The translations under genes were made by a program, and so were the position numbers. A stretch of DNA of 18,643 nt from Actinomycetospora sp. (GTDB taxonomy: Bacteria > Actinomycetota > Actinomycetes > Mycobacteriales > Pseudonocardiaceae). Under the pieces are notes generated by a model. It was not told the origin of the DNA, searched no databases, and saw only the letters and a program-made list of their open reading frames with translations. This document shows positions 269-9,946 of the stretch, in pieces; position 1 is the first letter of the stretch, and each line of letters starts with the position of its first letter. The stretch spans positions 1 through 18,643 of the forward strand of contig JAICLN010000030.1 of assembly GCA_025925615.1 (NCBI GenBank). The letters run 5' to 3'.

Positions 269-547
269 CACGCGGTCGACGGGCGAGTGGACGCCCGCAT
301 CGGCGGGTTCACCGAGGCGTTCGCCGCCACGTTCCCCGGGGCGGCCGACGTCGCCGCGGAGCGTCGCCACAGCCTGCGGGCGACCGCCGAGCTGGTTCAC
401 CGGGCCGGCCGGACCGGATCCCTGCGGCCCGACTTCGCCGTGGACGACCTGGTCCTCGTGCTCACGGCCCACCGGGGCCTGCGCGGGGCGGCGTCCCGAC
501 GGTTCGCGACGCTCCTGATCCAGGGGCTCGAGGCGCCGCACGGGTGA
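269..547 (+). pseudogene. TetR-family regulator, C-terminal remnant
   Basis: The frame from about 269 to the TGA at 545-547 resembles the C-terminal ligand-binding part of a TetR-family regulator. It contains F-T-E-A-F, an R-x-S-L-R-A-T-A-E-L-V-H-R-A helix, G-x-L-R-P-D-F-A-V-D-D-L-V-L-V-L and the closing S-R-R-F-A-T-L-L-I-Q-G-L motif. A GTG at 287 would give 86 aa, but no helix-turn-helix domain is found in any frame of bases 1-268, and a complete member is about 190-200 aa. The segment between G-L-R-G and A-S-R-R-F looks shortened compared with usual members. I read it as a 3' fragment of a lost regulator rather than a working gene. The family call rests on remembered motif style and has not been tested by alignment. 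Confidence 0.55.
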
Positions 548-606
548 CGCCGGTGCCACGGGATCGGACCCTGGTGGAGACGCCCCCGATGCGGAACAGT
601 GGTCGT

Positions 607-705
607 GTGACCCCTGACCGGCCGTTGGTGCGACGTCTTCACGTCGACCTGTGCCGCCTGGCCGCGGCCACGTGTCGCCCGGGTCCCCGCCGCCCGCGTT
701 CCTGA
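607..705 (+). CDS. cysteine-containing leader peptide 1 (32 aa)
   Basis: A GTG at 607 opens a 32-codon reading frame ending in TGA at 703-705. The peptide carries the core L-V-R-R-L-H-V-D-L-C-R (residues 7-17) and a second Cys at residue 23, 11 residues after the His. The same core occurs in two other tiny genes in this window (4693-4770 and, on the minus strand, 8443-8523), each lying 137-145 nt upstream of a gene. Actinobacteria are known to carry short R-x-H-V-D leader peptides and cysteine-rich upstream ORFs that tune sulfur-assimilation operons, so a cysteine-sensing cis-acting leader is the best reading. The gene 143 nt downstream (849-1262) has no recognised function. There is no strong Shine-Dalgarno; the bases just upstream match those before leader 2. 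Confidence 0.75.
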   Translation: MTPDRPLVRRLHVDLCRLAAATCRPGPRRPRS

Positions 706-728
706 CCGGCCTCGCCGCGCGGCGCGAC

Positions 729-749
729 CCCCGGCCTCGACGGCCGGGG
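729..749 (+). promoter_or_regulatory. strong hairpin downstream of leader 1
   Basis: CCCCGGCC at 729-736 and GGCCGGGG at 742-749 form a perfect 8-bp stem with a 5-base loop. The hairpin starts 23 nt after the leader stop codon and about 100 nt before the next gene start. That is where an attenuator or pausing hairpin would lie if leader translation controls the 849-1262 gene. There is no T-tract, so a factor-independent terminator is not demonstrated. Confidence 0.4.
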
Positions 750-848
750 TGTCCGCCGCCCCGACGCCGTCCGCTCCGCGCCCGTGGCCCTCGCCCCGGC
801 GAACCTGCCCGTAGGCGAGCACGGCGCCCCACCGAAACGGCTGCCCCG

Positions 849-1262
849 ATGACGCTCCTGTCCGACCCCGCCGGCACGGCACCCGCCCGCCCCGTCTCGC
901 CCGTCTCGCCCGTCTCGTCCGTCGGCCCGTCCGCCCCGGTCCGCTCCGGCTCTCCGGTCCGCCCCGTCGGCGCCACCTCGACGAGCCCGCGTCGCGCCGT
1001 CGCGCCGGCCTCCCCGCTGGCGCGCGCCGTGGCCGCCGCCGTCGCGAGCCTGGACGACGTCGACGGCTCCGTCCCGCTCGAGGTCCGGCGGCGCATCGAC
1101 GCGATGCTCCGCCTCGCCGTGGACCGCCACCTCGCGCGCGTCGGCGAGGACGGCCCGGTCGCCGCCGTGCCTGCGCTGCGCGTCGCCTGCGCCCACCTCG
1201 CCGCCGGGGACCTCGAGGACGCCTACCTGGCGCTCCTCACGGCTCGCGACCTGCTGCGATGA
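849..1262 (+). CDS. hypothetical protein (137 aa) downstream of leader peptide 1
   Basis: I do not recognise this protein. The ATG at 849 gives 137 aa. The first ~50 residues are a low-complexity Pro/Ser/Val/Arg stretch that includes a three-fold P-V-S repeat. The remainder (about 55-137) is predicted to be compact and helical: L-A-R-A-V-A-A-A-V-A-S-L-D-D-V-D, then V-R-R-R-I-D-A-M-L-R-L-A-V-D-R-H, then A-L-R-V-A-C-A-H-L-A-A-G-D-L-E-D-A-Y-L-A. There is one Cys and no signal peptide or membrane helix. Strong G/C bias in third codon positions supports coding. No clear ribosome-binding site precedes the ATG, so the start is uncertain. It lies 143 nt after a sulfur-type leader peptide, the spacing seen at the osmC and ssuA leaders, which suggests a role linked to sulfur supply (inference only). 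Confidence 0.6.
   Translation: MTLLSDPAGTAPARPVSPVSPVSSVGPSAPVRSGSPVRPVGATSTSPRRAVAPASPLARAVAAAVASLDDVDGSVPLEVRRRIDAMLRLAVDRHLARVGEDGPVAAVPALRVACAHLAAGDLEDAYLALLTARDLLR
891..917 (+). repeat. 9-bp tandem repeat (x3) inside the hypothetical gene
   Basis: The 9-base unit CCCGTCTCG occurs three times in a row and encodes P-V-S repeats in the low-complexity N-terminus of the 849-1262 protein. It is in frame, so copy-number change would not break the gene. Confidence 0.9.
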
Positions 1263-1450
1263 GCCGGCCCGGGTCCCGCCGCCACCACGCGGCCGGGCCC
1301 GTACCGTGCAGGCCGTCGTCGGTCCGGGGCTCCCGGTCCCCCTCGCCCACCGATCGCCTTCCGGGCGCTGCAGCGGCTCGCGGTCGCCCTGCGTCCCGTG
1401 CTGCGCCCAGGCGTCCTCACCGGCTGCGCCGCGCCCGGTAGCGCTGAGAA

Positions 1451-1477
1451 GGTGCCTCCGGCTCGTGAGAGCGCACC
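1451..1477 (-). terminator. candidate hairpin after the TauE/SafE gene
   Basis: On the minus strand, just past the stop at 1481-1483, GGTGC (1477-1473) pairs with GCACC (1455-1451). Inside that, GCTC pairs with GAGC around a TCAC loop. It is a plausible terminator for the exporter gene, but the stems are short and there is no U-tract. The rest of 1263-1480 shows nothing I can assign. Confidence 0.3.
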
Positions 1478-1480
1478 AAC

Positions 1481-2245
1481 CTAGACGACGACGGCCGCGA
1501 GCGCGGCGAGGAGCAGGACGACGTAGGCGACCGCGTGGGCGCGGTCGGGGATGCGGGGCAGCAGCCGCCGCGCCACCGGGATCGTCGGCAACGATCCGGC
1601 CAGCAGGGCCGCCCCGGCGAGGAGGTCCACCGTGCCACCCGTGCCGGGCAGCAGCGCGTAGACGGCGGTGGCGACGACGGCGACGGGCAGGGTCAGCGGG
1701 TTCGCAGCGGCGACCGCCCGGACCATCGGCCGGCCGCGGCGGCGCAGCAGCGGCACGGTCATGACGCTGCCGCCGACGCCGAGGAACGCGGCCACGGCTC
1801 CGATGCCGACACCCCCGACGGTGCTGGTCACCGGGCCGACGGGCCGGACCTCGCCGGGACGCAGGAACCCGCGGCGGACGACGCTGTCGACGATCGTCAC
1901 CCCGAGGTAGACCGCGAACAGCACGCGGACGACACCCTCGGACGCCGCGGTCGCCGCGACGGCCCCGCCCGCCGCCCCGACCGCCATCCACGCCGCCAGG
2001 GGCCAGAGGTCCTCGCGGCGCAGCCGTCCGGCCCGGCGCTGCGCCAGGGCGGCCACCGCGGCGTTGACGATCATGACGGCGTTCGACGTGGCCACGGCGA
2101 CGTGCATCCCGTCCGGACCGCCGCGCGAGAGGGCGAACACGACCGGCACGGTGACGAATCCGCCGCCGAAGCCGAACAGCACCGTCGTCACGCCGCTGAG
2201 CACGCCGAACCCGACCAGCACCAGCACCAGCACCGTCGTCACCAC
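1481..2245 (-). CDS. TauE/SafE-family sulfite/organosulfonate exporter
   Basis: The 254-aa product is an integral membrane protein of the TauE/SafE (DUF81) family, which exports sulfite, sulfonates or sulfoacetate. It shows the two-fold repeat typical of the family: an N-terminal half opening with L-V-G-F-G-V-L-S-G-V and G-F-G-G-G-F-V-T-V-P, and a second half with G-G-V-G-I-G-A-V-A-A-F-L-G-V-G-G-S-V-M-T-V-P-L-L. About eight hydrophobic helices are visible, and the length is usual for the family. Its start is a GTG at 2243-2245, preceded by a TANNNT-type -10 (TACCGT, 2259-2254) only 8 nt upstream, which suggests a leaderless mRNA. It is divergent from the AraC-type gene at 2335, which probably controls it. 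Beside ssuD and ssuABC it would remove sulfite released from sulfonates; the exact substrate is inferred. Confidence 0.85.
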   Translation of the reverse strand: MVTTVLVLVLVGFGVLSGVTTVLFGFGGGFVTVPVVFALSRGGPDGMHVAVATSNAVMIVNAAVAALAQRRAGRLRREDLWPLAAWMAVGAAGGAVAATAASEGVVRVLFAVYLGVTIVDSVVRRGFLRPGEVRPVGPVTSTVGGVGIGAVAAFLGVGGSVMTVPLLRRRGRPMVRAVAAANPLTLPVAVVATAVYALLPGTGGTVDLLAGAALLAGSLPTIPVARRLLPRIPDRAHAVAYVVLLLAALAAVVV

Positions 2246-2253
2246 GGGCGATG

Positions 2254-2259
2254 ACGGTA
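2254..2259 (-). promoter_or_regulatory. -10 element for the TauE/SafE gene
   Basis: TACCGT read on the minus strand matches the actinobacterial TANNNT consensus. It sits 8 nt before the GTG at 2245, which fits a leaderless transcript. No convincing -35 is seen. Confidence 0.4.
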
Positions 2260-2269
2260 GGTCCTGGCC

Positions 2270-2279
2270 GGGCTAGCCC
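2270..2279. promoter_or_regulatory. palindrome between divergent exporter and AraC genes
   Basis: GGGCTAGCCC is a perfect 10-bp palindrome in the 89-bp divergent intergenic space. A second GCTAGC core lies at 2321-2326, overlapping the AraC gene -10. It may be an operator, although AraC proteins usually bind direct repeats. Confidence 0.3.
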
Positions 2280-2322
2280 ACATCCGATGGACGGCCGCGT
2301 CGCTGCGAGTTCCGGCCACCGC

Positions 2323-2328
2323 TAGCCT
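2323..2328 (+). promoter_or_regulatory. -10 element for the AraC-family gene
   Basis: TAGCCT matches TANNNT and ends 6 nt before the GTG at 2335. The spacing implies a leaderless mRNA and explains the lack of a Shine-Dalgarno sequence. Confidence 0.45.
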
Positions 2329-2334
2329 CGGCCG

Positions 2335-3096
2335 GTGCCCGGGGTCCACATCGACGACGTCGACCACCTCGACCGCGACGTCGTGGCCCTCGCGACGGCG
2401 TACCCCTCGGATCACGTCCTGGCGCCCCACCGGCATCGTCGGGCCCAGTTCCTCTACGGCGCCACCGGCTCGATGCGCGTCGAGACCGCCCACGGCAGCT
2501 GGACCGTCCCGCCGCAGCGGGCCGTGCTGGTCCCGCCCGGCACCGAGCACTCCGTGCGCATGGACGGCGTGCGCACCCACAGCCTCTACCTCGAGCCGAG
2601 CGCGGTGCCGTGGTTCCCGCCGCGCTGCCGGGTCGTCGAGGTCCGCCCGCTGCTGCGCGAGCTCGTCGGGGAGACGGTCGAGCTCGACGTCGAGCGCCCG
2701 CCGCGGGGGCGCGACCGGACGCTGCTCGCGCTCACCCTCCACGAGATCCGGCGCTGCTCGCCGCTCCCGCTGGACCTGCCGCTGCCGGCCGACCCGGACC
2801 TCCGTCGCGCCTGCCAGGACTTCCTGGCCGCGCCCCGGATCGACGCGACCCCGCAGCAGTGGGCCGCGCGTCTCGGGGTCAGCGTGCGCACGCTGCACCG
2901 GCGATTCACCGCCGAGACCGACACCACCCTGGCCGACTGGCGACGCCGGGCCTGCGTGCTGCACGCCCTCCCCCACCTCGCCGCGGGTCGGTCCGTCACC
3001 GCGATCGCCGCCGATCTCGGCTACGCCGGGCCGGCTGCGTTCACCACGATGTTCCACCGCACCCTCGGCGCCCCGCCGAGCGCGTACCGGCGCTGA
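2335..3096 (+). CDS. AraC-family transcriptional regulator
   Basis: The 253-aa protein has an N-terminal cupin-like sensor. It includes H-V-L-A-P-H-R-H-R-R-A-Q-F-L-Y near residue 25, W-T-V-P-P-Q-R-A-V-L-V-P-P-G near 60 and H-S-L-Y-L at about 80. The C-terminal two-helix-turn-helix DNA-binding domain covers about 155-253, with W-A-A-R-L-G-V-S-V-R-T-L-H-R-R-F, then A-I-A-A-D-L-G-Y-A-G-P-A-A-F-T-T-M-F-H-R and the ending P-S-A-Y-R-R. This layout is that of AraC regulators that usually sit divergent from a single transporter gene and control it, which matches its position opposite the TauE/SafE exporter. The effector cannot be told from sequence. The GTG start was chosen for the TAGCCT -10 six bases upstream and because it precedes the cupin domain. 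Confidence 0.9.
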   Translation: MPGVHIDDVDHLDRDVVALATAYPSDHVLAPHRHRRAQFLYGATGSMRVETAHGSWTVPPQRAVLVPPGTEHSVRMDGVRTHSLYLEPSAVPWFPPRCRVVEVRPLLRELVGETVELDVERPPRGRDRTLLALTLHEIRRCSPLPLDLPLPADPDLRRACQDFLAAPRIDATPQQWAARLGVSVRTLHRRFTAETDTTLADWRRRACVLHALPHLAAGRSVTAIAADLGYAGPAAFTTMFHRTLGAPPSAYRR

Positions 3097-3115
3097 GGCC
3101 CCCGCCCCGTCGGTG

Positions 3116-3161
3116 GCGAGAGGGCCGTTCGGACGCGTAGACGCAGCGAGAGTGCCGTTCG
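3116..3161. repeat. two direct repeats of 16 bp between convergent genes
   Basis: GCGAGAGGGCCGTTCG (3116-3131) and GCGAGAGTGCCGTTCG (3146-3161) differ at one base and are spaced 30 bp start to start. They lie between the AraC stop (3096) and the dodecin stop (3173). The second copy can also fold as AGCGA/TCGCT. Function is unknown; a dispersed intergenic repeat or weak bidirectional terminator are the options. Confidence 0.6.
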
Positions 3162-3172
3162 CTCGTGGGGGA

Positions 3173-3391
3173 TCAGCCCTTGGTGTCCTTCAGCGTGAAG
3201 CCGACCCCGAGCGTCACCTGGAAGTGCCCGATCTCGCCGTCGCGGACCTCACCCCGGATCTCCGAGACCTCGAACCAGCCGATCTCGTCGATGGTCTGCG
3301 ACGCGCGCTTGATCGCGCCGCGGATCGCGTCGTCGATGCCGATCTCGGAGCTGCCGACGATCTCGGTCTTGCTGTACGCGTTGTCGGACAC
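3173..3391 (-). CDS. dodecin (flavin-binding/storage protein)
   Basis: The 72-aa protein is a full-length dodecin, a small dodecamer that binds and buffers FMN or riboflavin. Diagnostic features are K-T-E-I-V-G-S-S near the N-terminus, the helix A-I-R-G-A-I-K-R-A-S-Q-T-I, the flavin-stacking Trp in I-G-W-F-E-V, then E-I-R-G-E-V and H-F-Q-V-T-L-G-V-G-F-T-L. The GTG start at 3389-3391 is supported by a strong GGAGGAG ribosome-binding site about 7 nt upstream and by the usual family length; upstream in-frame sequence is low-complexity. It is divergent from the FMN-dependent ssuD gene (start 3573), so it may hold flavin for the monooxygenase or protect against free reduced flavin (inference). Confidence 0.93.
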   Translation of the reverse strand: MSDNAYSKTEIVGSSEIGIDDAIRGAIKRASQTIDEIGWFEVSEIRGEVRDGEIGHFQVTLGVGFTLKDTKG

Positions 3392-3572
3392 GGAATTCTC
3401 CTCCAGGGTGGGCGTGCGGGAACGGCCGAGGGGTGCGGGCCACGGCCCGGCGGGTGATCGCCGACGCAACCCCACGGTGCGCCGGCGCCGGCGCCCCCGG
3501 ACCTCCACCGGTGGGGCCGGTCACACCGAGATCACCGGGGCCCGAGTACGGCCACAGCGAGGGAGTCGCGCC

Positions 3573-4643
3573 ATGGGCATCGTCCCGCACTGGTTCCTGC
3601 CCACGTCCGGGGACGCGCGCGGCATCGTCGCGCGCCGCCACGCCGACCGCGGGCAGGCCGGTGAGGCGCCCCGCCCCGCCGAGATCGACTACCTCGCCCA
3701 GGTCGCCCGCGCCGCCGAGCACCTCGGCTTCCACGGCGTCCTCACCCCGACCGGGACCTACTGCGAGGACGCCTGGATCACCACCGCGGCACTGCTGCGC
3801 GAGACCCGCACGCTGTGCTACCTCGTGGCGTTCCGCCCCGGCCTGATCTCCCCGACCCTCGCCGCCCAGCAGGCCTCGACCTACCAGCGGATCGCCGACG
3901 GCCGGCTGATGCTCAACGTGGTGACCGGCGGGGACGCGATCGAGCAGCAGCGCTTCGGCGACTGGACCGACCACGACGCCCGCTACGCCCGTACCGCCGA
4001 GTTCCTGACGGTGCTGCGGGGCGCCTGGGGGCCCGTGCCGTTCGACTTCAGCGGGGAGCACTACCGCGTCGCCGGCGCCGAGACGCTCGCCACCCCGGAC
4101 CCCGTGCCGCCGGTCTACTTCGGCGGGTCCTCCGACGCGGCGCTCACGGTGGCCGCCCGGCACGCCGACGTCTACCTCACATGGGGCGAACCGCCGGCCC
4201 TGGTCGCGGAGAAGATCGGGCGTGTCCGCAAGCTCGCCGATCAGCTGGAGCGGCCGGTCCGCTTCGGGATCCGGCTGCACGTCATCACCCGCGACACCGC
4301 CGAGCAGGCCTGGGCCGAGGCGCACCGGATGCTCGAGGCGCTCGACCCGGCCGAGATCGCGGCCGCCCAGGAAACCCTGCGGACCAGCCAGTCCGTCGGC
4401 CAGCAGCGGATGCTCGCCCTGCACGGCGGCTCGGCCGACGACCTCGAGATCAGCCCCAACCTGTGGGCCGGGATCGGGCTCGTGCGCGGTGGGGCGGGCA
4501 CGGCCCTCGTCGGGAGCCACGAGCAGGTGGTGGAACGGATCGCCGAGTACCACGAGCTCGGGATCGACGAGTTCGTGCTGTCCGGCCACCCCCACCTCGA
4601 GGAGGCCTACCAGGTGGGCGAGGGCGTCCTCCCCCTCCTGTGA
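3573..4643 (+). CDS. ssuD: FMNH2-dependent alkanesulfonate monooxygenase
   Basis: The 356-aa product is a bacterial-luciferase-fold enzyme that uses FMNH2 and O2 to split alkanesulfonates into an aldehyde and sulfite. It matches E. coli SsuD, from memory, along its whole length: W-F-L-P-T near the start, L-T-P-T-G-T-Y-C-E-D-A-W (Cys64 = E. coli Cys54), N-V-V-T-G, Y-F-G-G-S-S, Y-L-T-W-G-E-P-P, G-I-R-L-H-V-I (Arg234, His236), N-L-W-A-G-I-G-L-V-R-G-G-A-G-T-A-L-V-G (Arg305) and H-P-H-L-E-E-A-Y. The position of the E. coli active-site Tyr331 is His339 here. The C-terminus is about 25 residues shorter than in E. coli. The ATG at 3573 follows a GAGGGAG ribosome-binding site at a good distance. No ssuE flavin reductase is present in the window; the transporter is at 5.5-8.3 kb. 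Confidence 0.93.
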   Translation: MGIVPHWFLPTSGDARGIVARRHADRGQAGEAPRPAEIDYLAQVARAAEHLGFHGVLTPTGTYCEDAWITTAALLRETRTLCYLVAFRPGLISPTLAAQQASTYQRIADGRLMLNVVTGGDAIEQQRFGDWTDHDARYARTAEFLTVLRGAWGPVPFDFSGEHYRVAGAETLATPDPVPPVYFGGSSDAALTVAARHADVYLTWGEPPALVAEKIGRVRKLADQLERPVRFGIRLHVITRDTAEQAWAEAHRMLEALDPAEIAAAQETLRTSQSVGQQRMLALHGGSADDLEISPNLWAGIGLVRGGAGTALVGSHEQVVERIAEYHELGIDEFVLSGHPHLEEAYQVGEGVLPLL

Positions 4644-4655
4644 GGCAGGACGGGG

Positions 4656-4684
4656 TTGGATCCCCGCTGCAGATCGACTAGGAA
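4656..4684 (+). promoter_or_regulatory. candidate promoter of leader 2/osmC
   Basis: TTGGAT (4656-4661), a 17-nt spacer and TAGGAA (4679-4684) form a recognisable -35/-10 pair. Transcription would begin close to the leader GTG at 4693, so the leader may be translated from a leaderless mRNA, as reported for cysteine leader ORFs in mycobacteria. CGGGG (4651-4655) and CCCCG (4662-4666) also form a small hairpin over the -35 box. Confidence 0.4.
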
Positions 4685-4692
4685 CGGTGGTC

Positions 4693-4770
4693 GTGAGCCC
4701 GAGCCTGGTGCGACGTCTGCACGTCGACCTGTGCCGCACGCCGTCGATGGGCTGTCGACCCGCCCGCTGA
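4693..4770 (+). CDS. cysteine-containing leader peptide 2 (25 aa)
   Basis: The GTG at 4693 starts a 25-codon frame ending in TGA at 4768-4770. It has L-V-R-R-L-H-V-D-L-C-R at residues 5-15 and a second Cys at residue 21, again 11 residues after the His. Over 32 bases (4706-4737) its DNA matches leader 1 (626-657) with one difference, and the bases before the start (GGAAC, then GTGGTCGTG) also match. It lies between ssuD and osmC, with 145 nt to the osmC ATG. A cysteine- or translation-dependent attenuator of osmC is the likely role. An in-frame GTG at 4687 would add two residues. Confidence 0.78.
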   Translation: MSPSLVRRLHVDLCRTPSMGCRPAR

Positions 4771-4835
4771 GCGCCCGCTCGCTTCCTGCCCGACGGCCGA
4801 CGCGTCGCGGGCTCCGTCACGTACGCCGGTCATCG

Positions 4836-4868
4836 AGGGGCCGGTGTGCGAACCCCTTCCGACCGGCC
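4836..4868 (+). promoter_or_regulatory. overlapping alternative hairpins upstream of osmC
   Basis: Two helices share bases and cannot form together. One pairs AGGGG (4836-4840) with CCCCT (4853-4857); the other pairs GGCCGGT (4839-4845) with ACCGGCC (4862-4868). A third GCCGGT at 4825-4830 could also pair with the last arm. Mutually exclusive pairings between a leader peptide and its gene are what an attenuator requires, but folding energies were not computed. Confidence 0.35.
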
Positions 4869-4915
4869 GCGTCCGCGCGCCGGTGAACCCACCCGCTCGA
4901 CAGGAGAGCATCCAC

Positions 4916-5398
4916 ATGGCGATCCAGCCCAAAGAGACCGTCGTCCCGTTCCCCGTGCACGCCGAGGGGACCGGCGTCTTCCAGACCCTGACCGCCGGCG
5001 GCGAGGACGGCCACGTCTTCACCTCCGACGCCTACCCGGCCTTCGGCGGGAAGGACTCGGCCCCGAGCCCACTCTTCTACGCGCTCGGCGCCCTGACCTC
5101 GTGCAACCAGGTCACCGCCAGCCTCGTCGCGAAGGACCTCGGCATCGCGCTCGGCGAGTGGACCTTCGACATCCAGGGCGACCTCGACACCGCCGTCCTC
5201 GTCGGCGGGGCCGAGGGCAACGCGAACTTCGACAAGGTCGAGGTCCGCGCCGCCGTCGAGACCGACGCCACCCCGGAGCAGTTCGACACCCTGATCTCCG
5301 AGACCGAGCGCCGCTGCCCCGTCACCCAGCTGTTCCGGCGCAGCGGCCTGGAGTTCGTGAACACCTGGACCCGCGCCGAGCTCCCGGCGTCCGTGTAG
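4916..5398 (+). CDS. OsmC-family protein (peroxiredoxin-like)
   Basis: The 160-aa product belongs to the OsmC/Ohr superfamily of thiol-dependent hydroperoxide reductases. Both catalytic cysteines are visible: Cys63 in A-L-T-S-C-N-Q-V-T-A (on the central helix) and Cys134 in E-R-R-C-P-V-T-Q-L-F. Length is normal for the family, and there is no signal peptide, so it should be cytoplasmic. The ATG at 4916 was chosen for the CAGGAGAG ribosome-binding site 8 nt upstream; a GTG at 4844 in the same frame would place 24 poorly family-like residues in front and would overlap the leader hairpins. It follows leader peptide 2, and its position beside ssuD suggests it handles reactive sulfur or peroxide species made during sulfonate use. 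The true substrate is unknown. Confidence 0.88.
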   Translation: MAIQPKETVVPFPVHAEGTGVFQTLTAGGEDGHVFTSDAYPAFGGKDSAPSPLFYALGALTSCNQVTASLVAKDLGIALGEWTFDIQGDLDTAVLVGGAEGNANFDKVEVRAAVETDATPEQFDTLISETERRCPVTQLFRRSGLEFVNTWTRAELPASV

Positions 5399-5408
5399 CG
5401 ACTCCGAT

Positions 5409-5441
5409 CGTGGGCAGAGCGGTTCGGCCGCTCTGCTCACG
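5409..5441. terminator. bidirectional terminator hairpin
   Basis: GCAGAGCGG (5414-5422) and CCGCTCTGC (5428-5436) form a perfect 9-bp stem with a TTCGG loop. It extends through one G-U pair to a total of about 14 bp (5409-5441). It starts 10 nt after the osmC stop and lies before the convergent permease stop (5522), so it can serve both operons. There is no long T-tract, as is usual in high-GC actinobacteria. Confidence 0.75.
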
Positions 5442-5519
5442 GGACGGCTGCACGGGCCGGGGAGGATCGCGCCATGCCTGAGGACCTGCGGTCTCGTTGC
5501 GCTTCGCGCCCGCGAGCAC

Positions 5520-6413
5520 CTAGGGCCCCGTGGCCAGGCCACGGGCCCGGAGGATGCGCCGTTCGGCCGGGCGGAAGGCGATGAGCTCGACCCCGATCCC
5601 GACGATGAGGATCAGGATGATCGCCGCCATCACCGACGGCATGTCCGAGAGCGACTGGCCCTGGTTGAGGTAGGCACCGAGCCCGAACCCCAGGCTCGGC
5701 GAGGTCGCGATGATCTCCGCCGCCATGAGCGAGCGCCAGGAGAACGCCCACCCCTGCTTGAGGCCCGAGAAGAACCCGGGCAGCGCCGCGGGCAGCATGA
5801 TCAGCCGGGCGGCCTGGGACCGCGTCGCGCCCATCGCGTACCCGACCCGCGGCAGCAGCGGCGGCACCTGGTCGATGCCCGACACCAGGCCGTTCGCGAT
5901 CGAGGGCACCGCGCCCATGAGGACGACGAAGTAGATCGTCCCGTCGGTCAGGCCGAACCACAGCACCGCCGCCGGCACCCAGGCGACCGACGGCAGGCTC
6001 TGCAGCCCGGACAGCAACGGCCCGATCGCCGAACGCACGAGCGGCACGGTCGCCACCAGCAGCCCCAGGGGCGTCCCGATGACCAGGGCGAACAGGAAGC
6101 CCAATACGGCCCGGCTGATCGACGTCCAGATGATCGAGAGCGCCTGCCCGCTCGCGAACTCGTCGGCGATCTGCCCGAACACTGCCCCGGGCGCGGGCAG
6201 CTTGAACTCCGGCCAGATCGCCGAGGCCCACAGGAGCTGCCACACCACGACGAACAGCACCAGCGCGACGATCGGCGGGACGACGCCCGTCGCGAACCGT
6301 CGCCACAGCGGCACCCGGCGCTCGGTCGGGGTGTCGAGCGCGTCGAGCCCCCGCCCGACGTCGACCGACTCGTCACGCTCCGCGGTGATCACGGCCCGGT
6401 CCTCACCGGCCAT
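5520..6413 (-). CDS. ssuC: ABC transporter permease (sulfonate/nitrate/taurine type)
   Basis: The 297-aa product is a BPD_transp_1 permease of the SsuC/TauC group. A hydrophilic N-terminal tail of about 40 residues is followed by six hydrophobic helices. The family signatures are present: L-P-A-P-G-A-V near 72, T-S-I-S-R-A-V-L-G-F near 97, and the cytoplasmic EAA loop A-M-G-A-T-R-S-Q-A-A-R-L-I-M-L-P-A-A-L-P-G that contacts the ATPase. The ATG at 6413 overlaps the end of the ATPase gene by 11 nt, so the two are translationally coupled. It is the last gene of ssuA-B-C, ending 79 nt from the shared terminator. The assignment to sulfonates rests on the neighbouring ssuD and on the leader peptide; nitrate/taurine-type permeases look similar. 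Confidence 0.88.
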   Translation of the reverse strand: MAGEDRAVITAERDESVDVGRGLDALDTPTERRVPLWRRFATGVVPPIVALVLFVVVWQLLWASAIWPEFKLPAPGAVFGQIADEFASGQALSIIWTSISRAVLGFLFALVIGTPLGLLVATVPLVRSAIGPLLSGLQSLPSVAWVPAAVLWFGLTDGTIYFVVLMGAVPSIANGLVSGIDQVPPLLPRVGYAMGATRSQAARLIMLPAALPGFFSGLKQGWAFSWRSLMAAEIIATSPSLGFGLGAYLNQGQSLSDMPSVMAAIILILIVGIGVELIAFRPAERRILRARGLATGP

Positions 6414-7206
6414 GGGCGGAGATCACCTCGCGCAGCTCGGTCGTGATGTGCTCGTGGAGCTCCTCGACGTCGGTCTCCGACCCGGTGCCCCACTCGCGCA
6501 CGACGCGGCCCGGACGCGACGAGAGCAGCACGACCCGCTCGGCGAGCCGCACGGACTCCCGCACGTCGTGGGTGACGAACAGGATCGTCGTGCCCGTCGC
6601 CTCCCACACGCGCAGCAGCTCGGCCTGCAGGAAGTCGCGGGTGATGGCGTCGAGCGCACCGAACGGCTCGTCCATGAGCAGGACTCCGGGCTGGATCTCG
6701 GTCGCGCCGGAGCCGCCCATCCCGGTGGCCGCCGCGAGCGCGCGGGCGAGCGCCACGCGCTGGCGCATCCCGCCGGAGAGCTCGTGCGGCCGCTTCTCGG
6801 CGAGCCCCTCGAGCCGCACCAGGGTGAGCAGCTCGCGGGCCCGCTCCCGGCGCTCGGTGCGCCCCGCCCCGGCGAGGCGCAGCGGCAGCTCGACGTTGCG
6901 GCCGGCGGTGAGCCACGGCAGCAGGGCCGCCTCCTGGAACATCACGGCCGGCCGGGCGGAGCCGGCTGCGACGGTGCCCGAGGTCGGCTGGTCCAGCCCG
7001 GCGACGAGGTTGAGCAGCGTCGACTTCCCGCATCCCGAGGCGCCGAGCAGGCAGACGAACTCCCCCGGCGCGACGGTGAGGTCGACGCCGTCGAGGGCGA
7101 CGACGGCGTCCGCCCCGGACCCGAAGACCTTCGAGACGTCGGTGACCTCGACGGCGGGCGGCCCGGTGCGGGGCGCGCGGTCCCGGCGATCCAGCGTGGC
7201 GGTCAT
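6403..7206 (-). CDS. ssuB: ABC transporter ATP-binding protein (sulfonate type)
   Basis: The 267-aa ATPase powers the importer. Visible motifs are Walker A G-A-S-G-C-G-K-S (55-62), Q-loop F-Q-E (90-92), signature L-S-G-G-M-R-Q-R (143-150), Walker B V-L-L-M-D-E-P (175-181), D-loop G-A-L-D and switch His213 (V-T-H-D). An extra stretch of about ten Gly/Ser/Thr-rich residues (about 160-173) separates the signature helix from Walker B. The ATG at 7206 is preceded by GGAGGGC about 5 nt upstream. It lies 22 nt after the binding-protein gene and overlaps the permease start, so the three form one operon. Confidence 0.92.
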   Translation of the reverse strand: MTATLDRRDRAPRTGPPAVEVTDVSKVFGSGADAVVALDGVDLTVAPGEFVCLLGASGCGKSTLLNLVAGLDQPTSGTVAAGSARPAVMFQEAALLPWLTAGRNVELPLRLAGAGRTERRERARELLTLVRLEGLAEKRPHELSGGMRQRVALARALAAATGMGGSGATEIQPGVLLMDEPFGALDAITRDFLQAELLRVWEATGTTILFVTHDVRESVRLAERVVLLSSRPGRVVREWGTGSETDVEELHEHITTELREVISAHGR

Positions 7207-7228
7207 GAGCTGCCCTCCGAGGGGTGGA

Positions 7229-8305
7229 TCACTTCTGGTCGAGGCCGGCGGAGTCCACGGTGGGACGGCCGGCCGCGGTCAGGGCCTGGTTGAGCGGGCC
7301 GACATCGATGAGGCCCTTGACGTTCGCCGCGGACTTCGCGGTCCCGGCCGTCACCGCGTCGTTCGCCAGCTGGGGGAAGGTCGAGGCCAGCGGGTCCGGG
7401 TCGAGGCTGACCCCGCTCCACGCCCGGTCGAGGACGTTCGCCGGGAGCGGCTTGCTGCCCGCGGCACCGAGCCCGGCGTTGGCGGCGGCCTTCGCGGCGT
7501 TCGGGTCGGTCCGGGCGAGATCCTCGGCGGCGACGAGGCCCTTGAGGAAGGCCGCGACGGTGGCCGGGTGCGCCTGGACGTAGTCGGTGCGGGCGATGAC
7601 GACCGTCGTCGGGAACTGCCCGTTCGGCCACAGCGTCCGCTCGTCGATGAGCTGGGTCGCGCCGGCCTGGAGCACGAACTGCGAGGCGTACGGCTCGGGC
7701 AGCCACCCGCCGTCGAGCTGGCCGGTCTTGTAGGCGTCGAGGGCGCGGGCGTTGTCGATGTTGACGACCTCGACGGCGCCGGGCCCGGTCCCGATCGGCA
7801 GGTTGTTGGCCTTGAGCCACTTCTTCAGGGCGATGTCCTGGGTGTTCGCGAGCTGCGGCGTCGCGATCTTCTTGCCCAGGAGCTGCTGCGGGCTCGTGAT
7901 GCCCGGTCGGACGACGAGTTGCGCGCCGCCCGAGGTGGCCCCGGAGATGACGCGGACGCCGTCGGGGTTCTGCTTGTAGGCGTTGATCGCCGGGCCCGAG
8001 CCGAGGAAGCCGAGGTCGATCGAGTTGCCGAGCAGGGCGGCGGTCTCCTCGGGGCCCGCGTTGAACGTCTGCGTCGCGAGCTCGGTCTGGCCGAGGTTCT
8101 GCGCGAACAGCCCGTTCTGCACCCCGATCAGGGCGCCGGCGTGGGTGATGTTCGGGAAGTAGCCCAGGCGCAGCTGCGGGGCGGGGCCCTGGTCGGCGGC
8201 GGGGGCGGGAGCGGATTCCTGCGCGCGGGAGCAGCCGGCGGCCGCCACTGCGAGGACGGCGAGCGCAGCGACGGCGAGCGCACGCCAGGAACGGGATCGG
8301 GTCAC
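7229..8305 (-). CDS. ssuA: sulfonate-type ABC substrate-binding lipoprotein
   Basis: The 358-aa protein has a lipoprotein signal: basic start T-R-S-R-S-W-R, hydrophobic core and lipobox A-A-A-G-C with Cys25 as the lipidated residue. After a Pro/Ala linker comes an SsuA/NMT1-type periplasmic-binding fold: L-R-L-G-Y-F-P-N-I-T-H-A (strand 1), G-L-F-A-Q-N-L-G, D-L-G-F-L-G-S-G-P-A-I-N-A-Y, then L-V-V-R-P-G-I, L-L-G-K-K-I-A-T-P and D-G-G-W-L-P-E-P-Y-A. It would bind an aliphatic sulfonate or related organosulfur compound outside the membrane. The GTG at 8305 is preceded by AGGAG at 8321-8317. A leader peptide gene (8443-8523) lies 137 nt upstream. Confidence 0.9.
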   Translation of the reverse strand: MTRSRSWRALAVAALAVLAVAAAGCSRAQESAPAPAADQGPAPQLRLGYFPNITHAGALIGVQNGLFAQNLGQTELATQTFNAGPEETAALLGNSIDLGFLGSGPAINAYKQNPDGVRVISGATSGGAQLVVRPGITSPQQLLGKKIATPQLANTQDIALKKWLKANNLPIGTGPGAVEVVNIDNARALDAYKTGQLDGGWLPEPYASQFVLQAGATQLIDERTLWPNGQFPTTVVIARTDYVQAHPATVAAFLKGLVAAEDLARTDPNAAKAAANAGLGAAGSKPLPANVLDRAWSGVSLDPDPLASTFPQLANDAVTAGTAKSAANVKGLIDVGPLNQALTAAGRPTVDSAGLDQK

Positions 8306-8325
8306 GGTTCGGGGTTCTCCTGGGG

Positions 8326-8339
8326 CGGCCCCGCGGCCG
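8326..8339 (-). promoter_or_regulatory. hairpin next to the ssuA ribosome-binding site
   Basis: CGGCC (8326-8330) and GGCCG (8335-8339) pair around a 4-base loop, ending 4 nt before the AGGAG of ssuA on the minus strand. It may act as a sequestering or pausing structure downstream of leader peptide 3. Confidence 0.3.
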
Positions 8340-8442
8340 AGGTGGGCGGGGTCGTGGACGAGGACGGTGGTGGCCCTCGAGCGCGCGCGTCGGTCCGGGC
8401 GTCGTCAGGTGGGTGACAACGCCGGGCGCGGGCGGAGGGGCG

Positions 8443-8523
8443 TCAGGAGAACAGACAGGCGCAGCTGTAGACGCGGCCGAAGTCGACGTGGCGACGGGCC
8501 ACGAGTCGGACTCCGGCGGTCAT
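8443..8523 (-). CDS. cysteine-containing leader peptide 3 (26 aa)
   Basis: An ATG at 8523-8521 opens a 26-codon frame ending in TGA at 8445-8443. The peptide has L-V-A-R-R-H-V-D-F-G-R at residues 7-17 and ends V-Y-S-C-A-C-L-F-S. Cys23 is 11 residues after His12, exactly as in leaders 1 and 2; the Cys16 of leader 1 is replaced by Gly and a new Cys21 is added. It precedes ssuABC, a sulfonate uptake operon, which ties this peptide family to sulfur. No Shine-Dalgarno sequence is seen before the ATG. Confidence 0.8.
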   Translation of the reverse strand: MTAGVRLVARRHVDFGRVYSCACLFS

Positions 8524-8535
8524 GGAGATTGAGCC

Positions 8536-8563
8536 TGCCACGTCGGGCGTGCGGTTGCCACGT
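8536..8563 (-). promoter_or_regulatory. 20-bp-phased direct repeat upstream of leader 3
   Basis: On the minus strand ACGTGGCA occurs twice (8563-8556 and 8543-8536), with starts exactly 20 bp apart, about two helical turns. It ends 12 bp before the leader ATG, in the expected promoter region of the ssuABC transcript. It is a candidate regulator-binding site; the protein is unknown. Confidence 0.4.
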
Positions 8564-8615
8564 TCGTGATCCGCGCGACGCGGGGTGATCTGGGTCGGCT
8601 CGGCGTGGACGGGCT

Positions 8616-8679
8616 TGATCACGACTTCGGTGGCGACACTCCCAAGTGACGCCGGGACGCGCCGCCGAAGTTCGGATCA
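8616..8679 (-). repeat. 64-bp palindromic repeat, copy 1
   Basis: Two 20-bp arms (8616-8635 and 8660-8679) are inverted copies with four mismatches around a 24-base core. In orientation it is the reverse complement of copies 2 and 3. Its right end supplies the TGA stop codon of the DUF559 gene. Confidence 0.88.
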
Positions 8680-9597
8680 CGGTGCTCGGCGCCGCTCGGC
8701 GAGGGCATCGCGGACGTGGGTGAGGAACTGGTCGGGGTTCTCGGTGAGCTCGTACCAGTTCGTCCGGATCACCACCCAGCCCTGCAGGACGAGCGCGTTC
8801 TGCCGGTCGGTGTCGCGCAGGAACGCCCGCAGGTCGCGGTGGTAGGCCCACCCGTCGATCTCCACGAGCACCCGCACCTCGTCGAACGCCAGGTCGAGGA
8901 ACGCACGCCCGTACCCCGGGAGCCACATCTCGCGATCGGCCCGCCACCCGGTGATCCCGTCCGCCGTCAGGGCCCGATGAGCGAGTCGTTCGGCCTGCGA
9001 GCGGGCCCCGCCGCTCGCGAGGCGGAGCAGCGTGGCGCAACGGCTGGCCCCGTGACGTCCGGTCGACCGGCGGTGGGCGCGCCGCAGCGCCTCGAGCTCC
9101 ACCGTCCGTTGCTGCAGGACCTGGTCCACCAGCCGCGCCCCGGCGGAGATGTCGAGGACCGCCACCGCGGCCAGCACGGTCGGGGCCTTCTTGGTCACCG
9201 CGACCCCGTCGACGACGACGCGGTCCTCCGGCGGGACCCCGCGGCGCAGCAGGCGCACGCCGGGCCGGGAGCGGGGCTGGGTCCGGTGTGGCACTGCGAT
9301 CTCGACGTCGGCCGGCGCCGTGTCGGTCAGCCGCCACCAGTACAGCGCCGACCTCCCGACCAGCGTCGCTTCTGGGCCCACGGACAGCATCGCCACCCGG
9401 ATCCGGGCGCGTGGTGTGTCGGGGTGGTCCGCGGCGCGCAGCACCCGGTACATCACCCGCAGCCACTCGCCCCGCGCGACCTTCGCCTCGATCGCGGCCG
9501 CGCTGTAGCCGATCTCCTTCGCCTGCTCGACACTGAGCGCACCGTCCTGGTCGCGGAGCAGCGCCAGGAGGCGGGCCGTGCGTTCGTCCACTCTCAC
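8677..9597 (-). CDS. AbiEi-antitoxin-like N-domain plus DUF559 nuclease-fold protein
   Basis: The 306-aa protein has two visible parts. Residues 1-60 (L-L-A-L-L-R-D-Q-D-G-A-L-S, then A-K-E-I-G-Y-S, then G-E-W-L-R-V-M-Y-R-V) match the winged-helix N-terminus of type IV AbiEi-like antitoxins. Residues about 200-300 match DUF559, a Vsr/PD-(D/E)XK-like fold, with D-L-A-F-D-E-V-R-V-L-V-E-I-D-G (Asp235, Glu246, Asp248 as candidate catalytic acids), D-R-Q-N and G-W-V-V-I-R-T-N-W. Such proteins are common in Actinobacteria and their function is unproven. No cognate toxin gene adjoins it. It is enclosed by inverted palindromic repeats (8616-8679 and 9643-9706). The GTG at 9597 fits the domain start, although an ATG or GTG slightly downstream cannot be excluded. 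Confidence 0.82.
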   Translation of the reverse strand: MRVDERTARLLALLRDQDGALSVEQAKEIGYSAAAIEAKVARGEWLRVMYRVLRAADHPDTPRARIRVAMLSVGPEATLVGRSALYWWRLTDTAPADVEIAVPHRTQPRSRPGVRLLRRGVPPEDRVVVDGVAVTKKAPTVLAAVAVLDISAGARLVDQVLQQRTVELEALRRAHRRSTGRHGASRCATLLRLASGGARSQAERLAHRALTADGITGWRADREMWLPGYGRAFLDLAFDEVRVLVEIDGWAYHRDLRAFLRDTDRQNALVLQGWVVIRTNWYELTENPDQFLTHVRDALAERRRAP

Positions 9598-9642
9598 CGG
9601 GCTTGGACGACACGACGGGCCGATCGGCTCCCTCCCGAACCA

Positions 9643-9706
9643 TGATCACGTCTTCGGTGGCGCGTCCCGGCGTCACTTGGGCGTGTCGCCACCGAGGTCG
9701 TGATCA
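9643..9706 (+). repeat. 64-bp palindromic repeat, copy 2
   Basis: Arms at 9643-9662 and 9687-9706 pair with two mismatches around a 24-base core (9663-9686). The core matches copy 3 at all but two positions by eye. It lies 46 bp upstream of the DUF559 gene start and is inverted relative to copy 1. Confidence 0.9.
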
Positions 9707-9726
9707 AGGTCGTGATCAAGGTCGTG
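9697..9726 (+). repeat. 12-bp tandem repeat at the edge of repeat copy 2
   Basis: The unit GTCGTGATCAAG occurs twice in full (9697-9708, 9709-9720) and again for six bases. The first unit overlaps the right arm of copy 2, as if the repeat end had been duplicated by slippage. Confidence 0.85.
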
Positions 9727-9857
9727 GGCCGCCAGAAGCGGGCTGAACCCCGCCTCGCGCCCGCGTCGGGCGACGTCGAGCACGGACTGCAGGTAGTCCA
9801 GCATCGCCCTGAGCGGCGCGTGGTCGTGGAAGACCGGCCCGTGGCCGGGCACGACGA
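9727..9857 (-). pseudogene. fragment of an MBL-fold hydrolase gene
   Basis: These about 130 bases match 10133-10260, inside the intact MBL-fold gene (9947-10888), at about 88 % by eye; the last 34 or so bases are identical. Translated on the minus strand it reads V-P-G-H-G-P-V-F-H-D-H-A-P-L and continues through D-V-A-R-R-G-R-E-A-G-F-S-P-L, corresponding to residues 214-258 of the intact protein. There is no start, no His-rich metal site and no C-terminus. It is bordered on one side by repeat copy 3 and on the other by copy 2 and its tandem tail. It is a relic of a duplication. The remaining parts of 9598-9946 hold only the repeats. Confidence 0.85.
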
Positions 9858-9921
9858 TGATCACGTCTTCGGCGGCGCGTCCTGGCGTCACTTGGGAGTG
9901 TCGCCACCGAAGTCGTGATCA
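9858..9921 (+). repeat. 64-bp palindromic repeat, copy 3
   Basis: Arms at 9858-9877 and 9902-9921 pair with two mismatches around the core 9878-9901. It has the same orientation as copy 2 and lies 25 bp past the stop of the intact MBL-fold gene. It could also act as its transcription terminator. Confidence 0.9.
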
Positions 9922-9946
9922 AGGTCGGCGGGGTCCCGCCACGAGC

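Follow-up and report, generated by a model that had tools for sequence, protein, structure and literature searches.

What do three tiny open reading frames (ORFs) that share one amino-acid core, lie on both strands and fall within 8 kb of a single actinobacterial contig measure when they are translated, and which genes do they serve? We address this question in an 18,643-nucleotide (nt) stretch of Actinomycetospora sp. DNA (assembly GCA_025925615.1, contig JAICLN010000030.1), which we analysed as a whole and call the window. A first-pass annotation had read the three ORFs as leader peptides of a local sulfur regulon, controlled either by the translation of a cysteine codon or by arrest of the nascent peptide. 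From sequence comparison, we consider it probable that they are translated leaders that sense the charging of tRNA-Cys and regulate by attenuation, and that their output structures are exchangeable from one operon to the next.

The three ORFs translate as described in that annotation. Leader 1 (607-705, + strand) starts at GTG and encodes 32 amino acids, VTPDRPLVRRLHVDLCRLAAATCRPGPRRPRS; leader 2 (4693-4770, +) also starts at GTG and encodes 25, VSPSLVRRLHVDLCRTPSMGCRPAR; leader 3 (8443-8523, −) starts at ATG and encodes 26, MTAGVRLVARRHVDFGRVYSCACLFS, each read up to its stop codon. All three contain the pattern LVxRxHVDxxR, followed by a cysteine 11 residues after the histidine, here called the sensor Cys, and a direct count returns the same distances from leader stop to next gene start, 143, 145 and 137 nt (next starts at 849, 4916 and 8305). 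The sensor codon is TGT in each leader, at 673-675 (+) in leader 1, 4753-4755 (+) in leader 2 and 8455-8457 (−) in leader 3, lying 10, 5 and 4 codons ahead of the stop. The other cysteine is encoded by TGC, internally in leader 1 (652-654, +) and leader 2 (4732-4734, +), and at 8461-8463 (−) in leader 3. The leader motif has three matches in the window and none in 300 dinucleotide shuffles of it, and we therefore reject a chance origin. Leaders 1 and 2 are near-duplicates in DNA, with 31 of 33 core nucleotides identical, and are consequently not independent examples. Similar gaps are not a rule, since the leaders of osmC genes across the genus sit 75-145 nt ahead of their gene. Leader 3 is of another subtype, with a TGGCA-GCT upstream sequence that, read by eye, is common to many leaders of sulfite reductase (sir) genes.

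The reach of the family is much larger than a local regulon, and the novelty that the first-pass annotation implied is not supported either, as NCBIfam already names the family and the precedent in the literature is direct. Leaders 1 and 2, at 30.6 and 28.1 bits, pass the cut-off of 27 for NF042934 (type cis_reg_atten, 'putative leader peptide'); leader 3, at 20.0 bits, falls below it. The best match of leader 3 is NF042936 (Ms4527A Cys-rich leader), at 35.6 bits and 5e-9, where the cut-off of 45 is not reached, and the window leaders score 19.4, 15.8 and 15.4 bits against NF042933 (Ms5788A Cys-rich leader, cut-off 45), so that none passes. Weak matches to NF042936 mean little, because at E 1 it also matched 5 of 14 control genomes; NF042934 matched none of the 14. 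At E 0.003, NF042934 matches 59 of the 60 genomes drawn from the host family, our own included, and 55 of the 60 have a match above its cut-off. In a sample of the phylum, with at most 34 candidates scored per genome, matches at E 1e-4 come from 16 of 246 genomes: eight belong to family f5 and five to f2, which we infer to be Streptomycetaceae and Mycobacteriaceae, f3 and f6 contribute one each, and the last is the host genome itself. That genome, a 59.8%-complete assembly, contains two further leaders on contig C163 (L010, 1300-1365 and 8297-8350), one of them ahead of a sulfite reductase gene (sensor TGC) and the other ahead of an SsuD-like monooxygenase gene (sensor TGT). The sulfite reductase gene is followed by cysH-, cysD- and cysN-like genes, names that were read off the translations rather than obtained by a family search.

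We next consider the genes behind the leaders. Our first set comprises 114 leaders, the 109 fetched being the better-scoring among the matches listed, together with five from the host genome. We used codon-position GC content to call the first gene downstream of each leader, clustered these genes and annotated one representative of each cluster, with a few singles left out. The clusters hold sulfite/nitrite reductases (26), DUF4395 proteins (19), SDF symporters (16), ABC permeases (13) and TauE proteins (10), followed by SsuA-like (4), OsmC (4), MetY (3), SBP56 (2), SfnB-like (2) and MFS (2) proteins, three unclear cases, luciferase-like monooxygenases (2 plus two singles) and six further singles. 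In 15 of the 19 DUF4395 loci, the DUF4395 gene is followed by the start of a gene that we take, from the look of its sequence rather than from a family search, to be SseA-like, and the permease cluster is, on the same kind of look, presumably SsuC. With the permeases counted as SsuC-like, about 83 of the 114 first genes belong to families linked with sulfur, a count made without a base-rate comparison; the SDF, OsmC and MFS proteins and the remainder are not sulfur-specific by domain. A second set of leaders returns the same kinds of gene (sir, SseA-like, DUF4395, SDF, SsuA-like, SsuC-like and monooxygenase), and across the 18 genomes of the genus a leader stands ahead of all 14 osmC and all 8 ssuA orthologs found, own genome included. 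A lack of sulfur-gene enrichment behind homologous peptides, which the first-pass annotation had named as a finding that would count against it, is, on these counts, not what the family presents. Together with the selection on the peptide and the codon choice described below, these counts support its proposal of a sulfur-linked regulon under cysteine-codon control, but not the local scope.

The conserved object is the peptide. Summing over all pairs of leaders within the genus, which are not independent of one another, we compared the proportions of synonymous (pS) and nonsynonymous (pN) differences. In the eleven core codons of the osmC leaders, pS is 0.375 and pN 0.007; in the five-residue spacer ahead of the Cys, they are 0.200 and 0.438, so that the spacer drifts freely. 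The core of the ssuA leaders is similarly constrained (pS 0.194, pN 0.022), and here the spacer is retained too (pS 0.179, pN 0.036). Accordingly, amino-acid selection on the upstream ORF, a mark of Canestrari-type attenuators (see below), is seen by pN/pS for leaders 2 and 3. Peptide-level conservation extends over the last ~20 residues, as is expected of an arrest peptide, and the spacing from core to Cys is constant in 107 of 109 distinct leaders.

These data bear directly on whether the conserved part is instead an RNA or DNA element, a protein-binding site or a structure, in which the ORF is incidental. Codon biases within the core lend this reading something, with Asp written GAT in 40 leaders where 7 are expected, Arg+9 as CGA or CGT, and Ser as AGC. 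Yet Ser+13, present in 102 of 109 family leaders, is drawn from both codon boxes (AGY in 81, TCN in 21), the invariant Arg+3 and Arg+10 are written by both CGN and AGG across the family, and the pN/pS of the osmC core is ~0.02. Such synonymous variation at fixed residues indicates that the protein is conserved, and not the RNA alone. Moreover, the window contains no Rfam family at the gathering threshold, and the leaders share little structure. We rejected an RNA element in place of the peptide on the synonymous changes and the missing Rfam match, and regard the wider explanation as hardly credible.

The codon that specifies the sensor Cys is conserved in its own right. Among the 107 distinct leaders with a Cys at this position, 76 use TGT, where 4.9 are expected from the codon usage of the downstream genes (~5% UGU); once the sir and TauE groups are set aside, all 75 remaining leaders do so. 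In these 75 leaders, other third positions are A or T in 14% of cases. The rule outside the two groups holds in 18 clusters, seven of them single genes, although the statistics ignore kinship. The second set agrees, with TGT in 47 of 49 leaders (8 expected), including 8 of 9 sir leaders, the ninth of which has no Cys, and the osmC and ssuA leaders of the genus carry TGT in 22 of 22. By comparison, a Cys at core position +9 is written TGC in 24 of 25 leaders of the first set and 21 of 24 of the second. The UGU bias at the sensor means that the codon counts and not the residue alone, and this suggests a role for decoding by tRNA-Cys. Where the sensor Cys is present (111 leaders), it lies one to five codons ahead of the stop in 104. 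The first-pass annotation had correctly noted two spaced cysteines in place of a run, and in this the window leaders depart from Canestrari-type attenuators; it is not an unusual state, as a single Cys is the commonest arrangement (71 of 113 leaders) and three in a row occur in none.

A single conserved Cys at a fixed distance from a conserved core is also what would be expected if the RxHVD...C peptide bound a small molecule, either cysteine or some sulfur metabolite, inside the exit tunnel, with the Cys codon only a part of the arrest sequence. This reading of the leaders as arrest peptides proper agrees with a core kept as protein under free synonymous change, with the near-constant spacing, with the prevalence of one Cys and with the few leaders that carry the core but no sensor Cys. 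A nascent chain, however, cannot see the difference between UGU and UGC, and UGU is nonetheless retained in 75 of 75 leaders; in addition, the relatives L120-L122 have expanded the Cys codon into runs, as codon starvation expects. We judge arrest proper to be unlikely.

Could starvation for cysteine at the codon be sufficient, if the RxHVD core had a separate task in leaderless initiation, in peptide turnover or in setting the early rate of elongation? Polycysteine leaders provide a precedent, and the UGU bias is what such a sensor would show. The scarcity of Shine-Dalgarno (SD) sequences is also compatible with it, as one stands ahead of only 5 of 111 leaders. A TAnnnT box lies 5-8 nt ahead of the in-frame ATG or GTG in 29 of 111; out of frame, the counts are 0 of 21 and 3 of 39. 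Leaderless starts are likely across the family and presumed for the three window leaders. The position of the core argues in the other direction: it lies 16 to 6 residues ahead of the Cys, where it would occupy the exit tunnel, and its near-invariant spacing is nothing that initiation should require. The first-pass annotation's remark that simple codon starvation leaves RxHVD unexplained stands, and we find plain starvation a rather doubtful account. It is possible, if short of probable, that the leaders form a modular sensor in which the LVxRxHVDLxRxxSxxC chain holds or slows the ribosome at one wobble-read UGU, a few codons from the leader stop, such that this codon alone reports Cys-tRNA, and is joined to varied outputs (an anti-SD tail, a hairpin, possibly a Rho site) ahead of at least a dozen kinds of gene, where the choice between UGU and UGC may set the order of response.

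Under tRNA-Cys-sensing attenuation, each leader would be a translated upstream ORF that gauges charged tRNA-Cys. When Cys-tRNA is short, the ribosome would halt once UGU occupies its A site, covering the mRNA just 3′ of it; when cysteine is plentiful, the ribosome would continue and depart. The pause would let the next gene switch on, by an effect that varies with the operon. In leader 3, the stalled ribosome would cover the anti-SD sequence GUUCUCCUG and free the ssuA SD arm CAGGAGAAC, allowing ssuA to be translated. Leader 1 has a strong hairpin just downstream as a possible output, and leader 2, like several other groups, could use an output of the Rho type known from tnaC. Less firmly, the nascent chain may slow or prime the ribosome, such that one codon suffices where the polycysteine relatives use a run.

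For leader 3, the minimum-energy fold (z −2.7) pairs GUUCUCCUG, within the leader's tail codons (8444-8452, −; read 8452-8444), with the ssuA SD arm (8314-8322, −; read 8322-8314). The anti-SD follows directly past the UGU and starts within the next codon, CUG. Among the eight ssuA orthologs (one tail is common to three of them), the pairing of tail with SD beats shuffled tails in 8 of 8 (fraction 0.02 or less), and the leader tail is the predicted partner of the SD in five. When a ribosome is masked at the UGU, the predicted opening of the SD rises from 0.000-0.002 to 0.29-0.53 in L232-L234 and L236, and changes little in the other four; for our own leader 3, run with different boundaries, it rises from 0.000 to 0.16.

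The other leaders differ in what follows them. The putative output hairpin of leader 1 (720-759, +) has a free energy of −33.5 kcal/mol, begins 14 nt past the stop and has no U-run; its z is −3.6, and that of the surrounding region −2.9. A scan of 540-8600 revealed no U-run terminator. Over 113 leaders, hairpins past the stop are slightly stronger than in shuffles (mean z −0.51, nominal p 4e-5). Clear pairing of the leader tail with the SD is confined to the SsuA and DUF4395 groups, and a second anti-SD occurs ~70-100 nt past the Cys in the sir and DUF4395 groups. Within the SDF, SsuC, TauE, MetY and OsmC groups we found no clear tail pairing, apart from some at 65-75 nt in the three MetY leaders, and SD sequestration was rejected for osmC, where tail pairing was better than 95% of shuffles in 1 of 14 leaders. 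The first 10 nt past the stop average 0.49 C and 0.27 G over 113 leaders, and the C/G contents over 45 nt are 0.49/0.40, 0.49/0.33 and 0.56/0.24 for leaders 1, 2 and 3. The C-over-G skew is 0.24-0.35 in the five unpaired groups (SDF, SsuC, TauE, MetY and OsmC) versus 0.11-0.19 in sir, DUF4395 and SsuA. Such a bias fits a Rho output in the five groups without proving it, and is only a hint, because it lacks a control set of other 5′ untranslated regions and because leader 3 is C-rich too.

Several observations weigh against tRNA-Cys-sensing attenuation as we have described it. The sir and TauE leaders carry TGT in only 4 of 36 cases, so that UGU is no universal requirement. The sensor Cys is absent from 2 of 113 leaders in the first set (L091 and L097) and 5 of 54 in the second (L168, L171-L173 and L176), and leader 1, with its UGU ten codons from the stop, is an exception to the usual placement. 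No exact TAnnnT box lies in the 40 nt ahead of any window leader. On the output side, leader 2 has neither unusual structure (z +0.24) nor tail-SD pairing, and in three of the eight ssuA orthologs the SD has a local predicted partner, so that a stall frees little. Simulating the stall in 104 of the 114 leaders raised the SD opening from 0.203 to 0.253, and with shuffled spacers from 0.227 to 0.252 (nominal p 0.04). A scan for tail-SD duplexes in 99 of these 104 leaders was not significant overall (p 0.21 and 0.53), and RNAalifold returned 5 pairs for the sir group, 3 of them with a double change, and 19 for the DUF4395 group, 0 of them with one. The weak mean effect of a stall, the restriction of pairing to two groups and the scarcity of shared structure led us to reject a single universal output.

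The genes around the window leaders are only partly sulfur genes. Leader 3 precedes an ssuA-ssuB-ssuC-like operon (8305-5520) and is the only one of the three that stands ahead of clear sulfur genes. The operon starts with an SsuA-like sulfonate-binding protein (7229-8305, −; TIGR01728 at 155.7 bits, cut-off 163.5), followed by an SsuB/TauB-like ABC ATPase (6403-7206, −) and an SsuC/TauC-like ABC permease (5520-6413, −), neither of which reaches the cut-off of a named NCBIfam model. Behind leader 2, the gene at 4916-5398 (+) encodes an OsmC-family protein by domain and family search, which is not clearly a sulfur protein by its domain. An SsuD-like FMNH2-dependent alkanesulfonate monooxygenase gene (3573-4643, +; TIGR03565 at 452 bits, cut-off 518) lies upstream of leader 2 and behind none of the three leaders.

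Leader 1 precedes an ORF of 137 amino acids (849-1262, +), one of the six singles counted above, that matched neither a Pfam nor an NCBIfam family at the thresholds applied. Its start codon is uncertain, because no SD sequence was detected ahead of the ATG at 849. The ORF has matches in all 18 genomes of the genus at E 0.001 or less, many of them weak, and a leader stands ahead of its relatives in 8 of 29 other fetched loci, and in 7 of 9 among the best other matches. Leader 1 itself has one close ortholog, L189, which stands in front of this ORF in a congeneric species; its other orthologs have diverged. We regard this ORF as a candidate unrecognised sulfur gene. Several of its relatives lie behind a leader whose core is altered to LVRRTYVDLLR and whose TGT is retained.

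Other features were seen in passing. Four f5 leaders of the second set (L168, L171, L172 and L173) have the core and no sensor Cys (e.g. ...LLRVSSAY before the stop), and precede one common gene family; even so, the NF042934 score of L171 is 31.8 bits. These leaders may reflect decay or a different signal. Beside leader 3, a repeat of ~70 nt occurs in three copies (8609-8683, 9639-9713 and 9854-9927), 87-93% alike and one of them inverted; with its imperfect inverted ends, it is a small repeat element. The protein encoded at 8677-9597 (−) has a DUF559/MTES_1575 nuclease-like C-terminus and is unrelated to the leaders.

If tRNA-Cys-sensing attenuation is the correct reading, many sulfur genes of actinobacteria would be under the control of one short translated sensor, and a leader with the core would be a marker for unrecognised ones, such as ORF 849-1262 and the OsmC protein. 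The conserved peptide and the UGU rule together offer a direct and inexpensive way to ask whether, with the help of a nascent peptide, a single codon is enough for a sensor of tRNA starvation.

How do the window leaders compare to known systems? In M. smegmatis, Shell et al. 2015 (PMC4633059) described a Cys-rich, ribosome-occupied upstream ORF ahead of cysA2, and Canestrari et al. 2020, as cited in passages of PMC9094748, PMC9031893 and PMC13236596, reported contiguous Cys codons that confer cysteine-dependent attenuation. The f2 loci L120-L122 connect these polycysteine leaders to ours: they combine an LTKRRAVDLCR core with a Cys run ahead of DUF4395 or SseA-like genes, and L120 and L122 pass the NF042933 cut-off (L121 was unscored), as does L124 of f3, at 60.6 bits and without a Cys run. 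As passing members of this class, the leaderless polycysteine upstream ORFs of mycobacteria (Ms5788A), L120 and L122 have a core in common with the window leaders and precede DUF4395 genes like those of the host family's largest TGT group; the class differs in its Cys run, compared to two Cys in the window leaders, none of which reaches that cut-off. The model NF042934 names its peptide as a putative leader and, in the entry as consulted, gives no mechanism, and covers leaders 1 and 2 and not leader 3; the Ms4527A model NF042936 is the best, below-cut-off match of leader 3, which precedes ssuA.

Cysteine leader peptides were predicted in Actinobacteria by Seliverstov et al. 2005 (PMC1262725). 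As far as the sections consulted go, those leaders resemble ours in having Cys codons near the stop ahead of cys operons, with a tna-like Rho output weakly suggested; they differ in the Cys runs of Mycobacterium, P. acnes and B. longum, and the same sections contain no single-UGU, ssu or osmC cases. The cysS attenuator uORFC-8-2 of Rhodobacterales, according to excerpts of PMC8632094, is likewise an upstream ORF with Cys codons ahead of a cysteine-linked gene and was proposed to sense tRNA-Cys; it differs in its two tandem Cys codons, its dominant UGC, its intrinsic terminator and its bacterial class. A reannotation of S. lividans (PMC8079986, in the portion seen) lists eight attenuator leaders, none labelled cysteine. 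Our search of the open-access literature, which omits most subscription papers, turned up nothing published on either the RxHVD core or the UGU rule.

The window leaders are probably a known kind of switch, of which the strict RxHVD core and the choice of UGU remain the unexplained part. A conserved nascent chain is also a feature of the TnaC arrest peptide, which arrests with tryptophan and has its control region at the leader stop. The window leaders are alike in their conserved chain; their bias at the level of the codon points to the sensing of tRNA, and we saw no sign of a free ligand.

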